NCBI GenBank assembly: GCA_017542125.1
Contig: JAFXXU010000007.1
Coordinates: 1-41,713, forward strand
Length of the DNA: 41,713 nt
DNA from: Ruminococcus sp.
GTDB lineage: Bacteria; Bacillota; Clostridia; Oscillospirales; Ruminococcaceae
Reading direction: 5' to 3'
Shown here: positions 1,450-5,124 of the stretch, one piece after another
Layout of the letters: the number at the start of each line of letters is the position of its first letter
Numbering within the stretch: the stretch's first letter is position 1
Translations under genes and position numbers: made by a program
Notes under the pieces: generated by a model
The model's database searches: none
Seen by the model: only the letters and a program-made list of their open reading frames with translations
What the model was told of the DNA's origin: nothing

Positions 1450-2646
1450 CTATTCTTTTATCAACAGTTTTTGATAACTTCTGTCTATCCCTATCGCCCC
1501 AAGCGGAGCTGTTATCAGTATTGCAAGCACCGCCACCGACAGCACGATCTTTCCGCAGGGCAGACCGAGCGACAGCGGCACCGAGCCGATAGCCGCCTGC
1601 ACCGTTGCTTTTGGAAGATAGGCGATCACGCAGAAAATACGCTCTTTTGCATTCAGATTCGTTCCGAGCAAGCAAAGGCACACGCCCACAGCCCTGAAAG
1701 CAAGGGCTATGAAGATCATCAGCACCGCCATTCCGCCTGCCGACAATGTATAACGCACATCTACCGCCGCACCAACAAGTACGAACAGCATGACCTCAGC
1801 AGCTATCCACAGTTTGCCGAACTTTTCGGACAGCCGAGCAGAAACGCTACCCTCGGTTTTCAGCTTGACAACGCAAGCCATAGCCACAACAGCAAGCAGT
1901 CCCGATAATGCAATATAGGGCTTTACAAGCGTTTCAATGCTCATCAGCAGGAACGCTGTGCCAAGCAGGATTACGACCTTCGTGCTGTTCCTTATCTTGT
2001 GCTTGTGCTGATATGACCGATCAAACAGCAGATACAGCCCGATCCCGACCACCGCACCGAGCAGAACGCCAAGCACAATGGATATGGGAATATTCAAGAA
2101 GTCGGTGACCTTAGCCGAGCCGCCCTGTGCCATCGTCACAAATGTGGAGAACAGCACGATCACAAAAATATCATCGCATGACGCTCCTGCAAGTATCATC
2201 TGGGGTATGCTTTTTTTCGTACCCCATTTTTCTTCGATGAGCTTCACCATTCGTGGTACGACCACCGCAGGAGACACCGCACTCAGCACCGCACCCATGA
2301 CGGCTGCTTCGATACGATCTACCCCAAGCAAGATAGGTGCGAAAACAACATACCCGACTATCTCACAGCAGGCAGGCACAAATGACATCAACACCGCAGG
2401 TCTGCCGACTTTTTTCAGGTCGGACAAATTCAGCGAAAGCCCTGCCTTTATCAGTATGATGATGAGGGCTATCTGCCGAAGCTCAGAGGATATACCGAGT
2501 ATTTTCGGATCGAGCAGATCAAGCACATAGGGGCTTGCCACGATACCCACACCGAGCATACCGATGATACGGGGCAAGCCTATCCTTTCAAAGATCGCAG
2601 CGGCAGACAGCCCAACAAGAAAAATGATCGCAAGTGATAACAGCAT
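1450..2646 (-). CDS. Kef/CPA-type cation:proton antiporter under fluoride-riboswitch control
   Basis: A 398-residue integral membrane protein with roughly twelve hydrophobic segments and the CPA Na+/H+ exchanger fold. Visible signatures include IFERIGLPRIIGMLGVGIVA near the N-terminus, AVLSAVSPAVVVPRM in the middle and GASCDDIFVIVLFSTFV, the last with the paired Asp residues typical of electrogenic CPA2 exchangers. There is no C-terminal TrkA-N or USP domain. The ATG at 2646 is chosen because GGAGGAATTTTA precedes it; the longer frame begins at a TTG inside the RNA leader. The leader holds a crcB-like aptamer and terminator, so expression is predicted to rise with fluoride. The inferred role is relief of fluoride stress by ion exchange; whether F- itself or a cation is moved cannot be told. 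Confidence 0.88.
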   Translation of the reverse strand: MLLSLAIIFLVGLSAAAIFERIGLPRIIGMLGVGIVASPYVLDLLDPKILGISSELRQIALIIILIKAGLSLNLSDLKKVGRPAVLMSFVPACCEIVGYVVFAPILLGVDRIEAAVMGAVLSAVSPAVVVPRMVKLIEEKWGTKKSIPQMILAGASCDDIFVIVLFSTFVTMAQGGSAKVTDFLNIPISIVLGVLLGAVVGIGLYLLFDRSYQHKHKIRNSTKVVILLGTAFLLMSIETLVKPYIALSGLLAVVAMACVVKLKTEGSVSARLSEKFGKLWIAAEVMLFVLVGAAVDVRYTLSAGGMAVLMIFIALAFRAVGVCLCLLGTNLNAKERIFCVIAYLPKATVQAAIGSVPLSLGLPCGKIVLSVAVLAILITAPLGAIGIDRSYQKLLIKE

Positions 2647-2665
2647 TAAAATTCCTCCATAAAAT

Positions 2666-2708
2666 AAAAAAGCCGACAACTATTGCGTAAAACGCAGAAG
2701 TCATCAGC
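2666..2708 (-). terminator. Riboswitch-controlled intrinsic terminator (expression platform)
   Basis: Ten pairs join GCUGAUGACU (2699-2708) to AGUUGUCGGC (2672-2681), with an inner stem UGCGU/ACGCA, followed by six U residues. The 5' arm is the conserved 3' part of the aptamer, so ligand-bound folding would block the terminator and allow read-through into the antiporter gene. Confidence 0.88.
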
Positions 2709-2767
2709 TTATGATAAGCGGTTTCGTAGGCTCAGTACGAGCCGTCCGTGGGAGAACATCATTCCCG
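2692..2767 (-). promoter_or_regulatory. Fluoride (crcB-type) riboswitch aptamer
   Basis: On the minus strand the leader follows the crcB consensus. P1 is GGGA (2763-2766) with UCCC. The P1 loop contains AUGAUGUUC. A variable hairpin GGCUC/GAGCC follows. Then come AACCGC, a hairpin GCUUA/UAAGC, and the invariant GCUGAUGAC followed by UUCUGC. The loop dinucleotide GA and the 3' UC replace the usual GG/CC pseudoknot pair, a change that keeps pairing. The aptamer begins about 13 nt after the predicted transcription start, and its 3' strand overlaps a terminator stem. The match was made by eye, with no covariance-model score. Confidence 0.85.
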
Positions 2768-2786
2768 ATATTCAGTTTGTGTTATA

Positions 2787-2815
2787 ATTATACCACAGAT
2801 CTATCCATAAGTCAA
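2787..2815 (-). promoter_or_regulatory. SigA-type promoter of the riboswitch-antiporter transcript
   Basis: TTGACT at 2810-2815 and TATAAT at 2787-2792 are spaced by 17 bp. Transcription would begin near 2780, just before the aptamer. Confidence 0.85.
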
Positions 2816-5066: not shown

Positions 5067-5124
5067 CTCGAAATGCGTTAGCCCTTAAACGGGCTCGTGA
5101 GTTCGAATCTCACCGTCTCCGCCA
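5067..5124 (+). other. 3' half of tRNA-Ser(CGA): attachment-site scar
   Basis: The sequence starts in the anticodon loop (CTCGAAA, anticodon CGA) and runs through the 3' anticodon strand TGCGT, a long variable arm (AGCCC/GGGCT), a T arm GTGAG-TTCGAAT-CTCAC and acceptor CGTCTCC-G-CCA. The 5' half is absent: no GGAGACG acceptor strand or D arm precedes it. This is what remains when an element recombines in the anticodon loop of a tRNA gene. A terminator follows, as for a tRNA gene, so the right flank looks like original chromosome and the left flank like element DNA. Confidence 0.85.

Follow-up and report, generated by a model that had tools for sequence, protein, structure and literature searches.

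A fluoride riboswitch precedes an NHA2-like antiporter that may take the place of the Fluc channel in Ruminococcaceae

Results

A riboswitch-controlled antiporter gene in Ruminococcus sp.

The window, i.e., the whole 41,713-nt stretch of DNA that was analysed (contig JAFXXU010000007.1, positions 1 to 41,713, of the Ruminococcus sp. assembly GCA_017542125.1), contains a fluoride riboswitch upstream of a gene for an NHA2-like transporter of the cation/proton antiporter (CPA) superfamily. The initial annotation, made from the letters of the window, had placed such a riboswitch at 2644..2815 and had named a promoter, aptamer, terminator, ribosome site and antiporter gene. All of these were indeed found, in that order:

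2810..2815, minus strand: -35 hexamer TTGACT (promoter pattern scan)
2787..2792, minus strand: -10 hexamer TATAAT (17-nt spacer, TG before the -10)
2688..2775, minus strand: fluoride riboswitch aptamer, RF01734 (covariance model)
2670..2710, minus strand: intrinsic terminator hairpin (fold, -20.9 kcal/mol)
2666..2671, minus strand: six-U run of the terminator (sequence; first two U paired in the predicted stem)
2654..2658, minus strand: ribosome binding site GGAGG (sequence; 7 nt before the ATG)
1450..2646, minus strand: NHA2-like cation/proton-antiporter-fold transporter, 398 amino acids (PF00999, 140.5 bits; fold match)

The Rfam covariance scan that had been proposed as a check bears out the identity of the leader: the aptamer matches RF01734 (Fluoride) over the full model (1-64 of 64) with 45.7 bits against a cut-off of 34 (E 1.1e-9) and is the sole gathering-level Rfam match within the window. 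A chance match is ruled out by this E-value together with the terminator stretch, which none of 200 shuffles equalled in stability (z -7.0). The 112-nt leader was likewise equalled by none of 200 shuffles (z -4.6); the aptamer alone is unexceptional by minimum free energy (z -1.8, 9 of 200 shuffles as stable) in a fold without pseudoknots. The first stem of the aptamer is followed by an insert of 23 nt, in which a small hairpin is predicted. The promoter-like TTGACT-17-TATAAT (2815-2787, minus strand) agrees with the consensus at 11 of 12 positions, against a background of eight matches of that quality in the 1.5 kb scanned, where 1.5 were expected. A perfect (12/12) sigma-70 consensus match lies just downstream of the antiporter gene (1443-1415, minus strand).

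The terminator had been described as a 10-bp hairpin with six U residues. Its stem proved to consist of 12 bp, a 2x2 internal loop and 5 bp; the six U residues stand, the first two of them being paired. An automatic terminator pattern scan did not list this hairpin, presumably because the internal loop breaks the pattern of the scan. As had been proposed, the 3' part of the aptamer is the 5' arm of the terminator: the hairpin begins 23 nt inside the aptamer, and the two should therefore be mutually exclusive, so that the predicted layout is that of a standard transcriptional fluoride ON switch. Riboswitch identity and terminator overlap are established by computation, and from the riboswitch family we infer that the leader responds to fluoride.

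The gene begins with the ATG at 2646 (minus strand). Its product matches PF00999 above the cut-off and has the NHA2 fold, which places it in the CPA superfamily; it matches PF00999 only, without homology to PF02537 or PF00654, and so belongs neither to Fluc nor to CLC-F. It falls short of the NCBIfam cut-offs for the K+/H+ antiporter (PRK05326) and the CPA2 subfamily 2a37 (66.5 against 355, 45.3 against 309 and 36.9 against 238.3 bits). Among the named relatives, the closest proteins are those of Ruminococcus sp. RGIG6026 (97%) and R. albus 8 (96%). NHA2 has Ser at position 132, where R or K is found in 100 of the 101 Bacillota-clade rows and one of S, G or A in four of five plasmid relatives; the R or K may be a weak lead. 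These five had been tried as an outgroup lacking the riboswitch, which was rejected when all five were found to have it; the residue comparison therefore shows common features only. Three relatives (L121, L134 and L157) have in-frame stop codons as bounded, reflecting broken genes, assembly errors or the bounds chosen.

Association of riboswitch and antiporter in other genomes

Among 247 genomes of the window's own family (Ruminococcaceae; the family sample), RF01734 was found at 76 places in 70 genomes, 65 of them above the family cut-off. Homologues of the window antiporter follow 61 of the 76 (59 genomes) at a distance of 37-342 nt, and 57 of the 65 places above the cut-off precede the NHA2-like clade. 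The others precede crcB (2), CLC (4) or none of these (9, two of which, in G191 and G211, are at contig ends). In this family, the fluoride riboswitch usually targets the NHA2-like antiporter. The earlier proposal of an antiporter controlled in place of crcB or CLC-F is thus supported as to the target, but the arrangement is no oddity, also since the association is in print (PMC11139923, in the part available to us). Seven antiporter places of the family sample initially lacked a riboswitch: at L071 the contig ends and the riboswitch is cut, L074 has a weak match (20.9 bits), G007 C25 is one piece of a split gene, and G188, G081, G145 and G046 gave no riboswitch match on repeat inspection. Genome G033, which has a riboswitch-crcB pair, carries two more fluoride riboswitches (L069 2899-2973 and 4891-4963), before genes for a MutS-family protein and a major facilitator superfamily (MFS) transporter.

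The pseudoknot was followed through the same leaders, with loop and tail strands presumed to be the partners (the Rfam line does not give them). The initial annotation had read a change from GG/CC to GA/UC that keeps pairing; one pair was read correctly, but the next is U.U, so that the window has loop GAUG and tail CUUC with three of four pairs. A sequence pattern parsed 68 of the 76 leaders (eight were not parsed): 47 have all four pairs, 15 have three and six are parse artefacts. The strands covary, GGAG/CUCC, GAAG/CUUC, GAUG/CGUC and GACG/CGUC being compensatory changes, and the GAUG/CUUC variant with its single U.U occurs in 13 of the 68, the window included.

A search of genome contigs found at least 566 relatives, of which the best 80 were kept. 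A gathering-level riboswitch is present in 66 of these 80, lying 36-165 nt upstream in 65 and 732 nt upstream in one. A strict test found a hairpin of 8 kcal/mol or more that begins inside the aptamer in 62 of 66 named relatives (median -21.9), and the remaining four have similar stems by eye, interrupted or doubled. Among the 14 without a gathering-level match, two (L112, L159) have no upstream DNA and eight show none; a weaker aptamer is recognisable by eye in L144, L145 and L154. L114 retains just the terminator half, within about 75 nt before the antiporter, with no 5' part of the aptamer to be seen; if this half acts, termination would be independent of fluoride. All ten viral-contig and plasmid relatives examined also have the riboswitch (four and six, respectively; two of the four are nearly identical, and the six were drawn from the eleven best of 798 plasmid records).

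Riboswitch-bearing relatives reach down to 34-40% identity in Ilyobacter and Cetobacterium (Fusobacteria) and Picosynechococcus and Leptolyngbya (Cyanobacteria). In a tree of 106 rows, a quick build of modest support (41 of 101 inner branches open, with a long-branch warning; L144, L145, L154 and L074 scored as riboswitch-bearing), the deep branches have the riboswitch and the ten rows without it are nested and scattered (eight changes). This distribution suggests that the association is old and that the clade is a family dedicated to the fluoride regulon. The relatives on cyanobacterial plasmids are longer (L169 2001-3617 and L170 2001-3626; 538 and 541 amino acids) and also stand behind a fluoride riboswitch; a domain scan, made of L169 only, found a C-terminal universal stress protein domain. 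In Peptoclostridium (L166 1317-3140) the riboswitch is followed by a small CBS-domain protein and then the antiporter, apparently as an operon.

Antiporter and crcB were not found together

The absence of a Fluc or CLC-F gene nearby, noted initially, extends to the whole draft genome of the window, in which profile searches found neither PF02537 nor PF00654. A hidden Fluc or CLC gene was thus not found; the draft is 90.5% complete, and the missing genes are therefore no proof of absence. In the family sample 29 genomes have PF02537 and 65 the antiporter, and none has both, where 7.6 would be expected (two-sided p 1.6e-4). A class-wide sample of 243 genomes, with PF02537 in 49 (48 above the cut-off) and the antiporter in 40, again contains no genome with both (8.1 expected; one-sided p 5e-5, or 6.9e-5 after dropping four genomes of the window's own family). 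Pooled, this amounts to none out of 490 genome rows (four genomes being in both samples) against ca. 15.7 expected; the combined one-sided p of 1e-7 treats genomes as independent, though they are related.

Swaps between the two genes are seen inside genera and families. Seven genera, g1 (the window's own), g6, g14, g29, g70, g83 and g94, have crcB in one species and the antiporter in another, and seven families of the class sample hold them in different genomes. Two comparator sets of transporters show no avoidance of this kind. CLC genes below 270 bits, a class that includes seven CLC-F-like genes of which four are riboswitch-linked, share 29 genomes with the antiporter (25.5 expected) and 12 with crcB (11.4 expected), and any CLC shares 31 with the antiporter (30.3 expected; family sample). 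Other PF00999 genes are present in six of eight crcB genomes of the swap genera. Replacement of Fluc by the antiporter is supported by the genome patterns in 247 and 243 genomes, corrected up to genus.

CLC could not serve as a clean stand-in for CLC-F and was rejected as such, as the PF00654 matches split by identity. Seven genes in the 247 genomes are at least 45% identical to riboswitch-linked CLC-F, four of them riboswitch-linked and three not; the remaining PF00654 matches listed are 30-40% identical, and the one of these that was tested had CLC-F structures as its only PDB matches. CLC-F proper occurs with the antiporter once (G236) and with crcB never, too few for a test.

Mobile elements

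A phage-integrase gene (PF00589; 5300-5845, minus strand) lies in the window near a tRNA 3'-end-like sequence at ca. 5090-5124, a possible integration site; a scan of the window with ARAGORN gave no tRNA. Three records classed as viral or phage (L161 and L162 from IMG/VR, and MT837274.1) also contain the antiporter, at 87, 86 and 79% identity; these copies are possibly host DNA. On an E. coli plasmid (NZ_KR259130.1, L171 3016-3564) a C-terminal fragment of the antiporter clade (query 212-398, 54% identity) adjoins rmtB, and 29 of 40 rows listed of the 798 plasmid records have the same partial match, a hint that a bacterium carrying this clade was the source of the DNA next to rmtB.

Discussion

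The arrangement suggests the following mechanism. Fluoride entering the cell would bind the nascent leader RNA, and the folded aptamer would hold the strand GCUGAUGACUUCUG, so that the terminator is blocked and RNA polymerase continues into the antiporter gene; in the absence of fluoride the terminator would prevail. The antiporter would be the main fluoride-defence transporter of the cell, taking the place of the Fluc channel, and would most likely remove fluoride, probably by F-/H+ exchange on an NHA2-type scaffold. We lean modestly towards this reading as a whole, i.e., a riboswitch that switches the gene of the main fluoride-defence transporter, which most likely exports F- in place of Fluc. 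For the exporter function by itself the odds are about even, and F- export, probably against H+, appears somewhat more likely than cation exchange.

A fluoride-induced exchange of Na+ or K+ for H+, which would adjust pH or ion balance and lower the build-up of fluoride or its damage with no F- moved, is a real possibility, if not the one that we would choose. Several observations weigh against fluoride export in place of Fluc, and the protein itself provides the first. All 101 Bacillota-clade rows have E95, D158, R318 and K346, and 100 have D159; in alignment these correspond to the Glu, the Asp pair, the Arg and the Lys of NHA2, which we presume to be the ion-site residues; at the position of D158 two cyanobacterial relatives have Ser. 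Such a set is expected of a cation/proton exchanger, keeps ion-stress compensation alive and is, therefore, the main doubt about F- export. The genomes add that 90 of 247 have neither antiporter, crcB nor any CLC, so that none of the three is obligatory and defence by any of them is optional, and that G236 combines the antiporter with a 45%-identical CLC-F-like gene. However, an accessory should accompany the exporter, at least at about chance level, and a replacement should avoid it; the pooled genomes show avoidance of crcB, which therefore favours F- export, the first of the two roles that the initial annotation had offered, over ion-stress compensation. Moreover, a genome with the antiporter alone would have no known route of F- removal if the protein moved only cations.

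The avoidance could also reflect habitat or lineage, with gene exchange among gut Clostridia, and not a shared function, which would leave the antiporter's role with fluoride aside. The sampled genomes are not independent, and many of the named relatives belong to bacteria of gut and rumen. In addition, crcB genomes contain CLC genes above 270 bits more often than expected (8 against 2.0, p 1.6e-4), and lineage or habitat therefore does shape such counts. Conditional on genus, the probability of no overlap is 0.003-0.008 (with no more than three sampled genomes assumed per genus, except four in g1, as inferred from the tables), weaker than the unconditioned figure. Nevertheless, the swaps occur within genera and in seven families of the class sample, and the comparator transporters show no avoidance, which makes this explanation improbable. 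That the RNA is no functional fluoride riboswitch, either a decayed copy or one for another ligand, is hardly credible. The U.U pair of the window copy and the unremarkable stability of the aptamer alone could be taken that way, but the model score is high, the same pseudoknot variant recurs in the parsed leaders, promoter, terminator and gene are intact, and the position of the leader is kept across phyla.

If fluoride export by the antiporter is accepted, the clade would form a third class of bacterial fluoride exporters, unrelated in structure to the known ones: an F-/H+ antiporter of NHA2 fold (CPA), riboswitch-controlled in Bacillota, Fusobacteriota and Cyanobacteriota, replacing Fluc in many gut Clostridia and exporting an anion on a Na+ site. 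This wider claim falls just short of an even call. If true, a cation-exchanger fold has been turned to anion export. In the literature searched, as far as its texts were available (including PMC11477304, PMC7266159, PMC11139923, PMC9495176, PMC2864571, PMC5533749 and PMC9484302), we met no account of a CPA protein that transports F-, although one may exist. EriC proteins were formerly taken for chloride transporters until fluoride riboswitches pointed to their misannotation (PMC7266159, in part), and the NHA2-like clade may be the next transporter to be revealed in this way.

Comparison with known systems

The crcB motif and terminators overlapping it have been described before (PMC2864571, in the part available). 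The window leader shares with RF01734 the full-length model match, the overlapping terminator and the ON-switch layout; it differs by the insert after the first stem and by its GAUG/CUUC pseudoknot with one U.U. Genes other than crcB matter as well: knockouts in Enterobacter cloacae FRM, where crcB and uspA are part of the operon, show this for riboswitch-linked genes (PMC5533749, as excerpted). In C. difficile, CLC and NhaP apparently share an operon, which perhaps pairs an exporter with a pH-compensating accessory (PMC11477304, excerpt). CLC-F, itself an F-/H+ antiporter, is like the window antiporter a transporter, not a channel, and under control of the fluoride riboswitch. It belongs, however, to another Pfam family and fold and is riboswitch-linked at only 4 of the 76 places in the family sample. 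Compared with NHA2 (SLC9B2), the window protein is bacterial and fluoride-controlled and lacks ca. 110 N-terminal residues.

The closest precedent is the group of Na+/H+ antiporters that, according to the consulted part of a 2024 review (PMC11139923, citing Baker 2012), are the next commonest fluoride-riboswitch genes after the exporters and are read there as serving pH homeostasis. The coupling of riboswitch and antiporter is, therefore, already in print. Set against those antiporters, which we know through the description in this review only, the present ones likewise stand behind a fluoride riboswitch but form a single NHA2-like clade, present in Bacillota, Fusobacteriota and Cyanobacteriota, which was not found together with crcB. 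What we did not meet in the accessible portions of the literature searched, and what this study adds, is the tightness of the coupling and the genomic pattern, i.e., the definition of the clade, its constancy across phyla and its avoidance of crcB.
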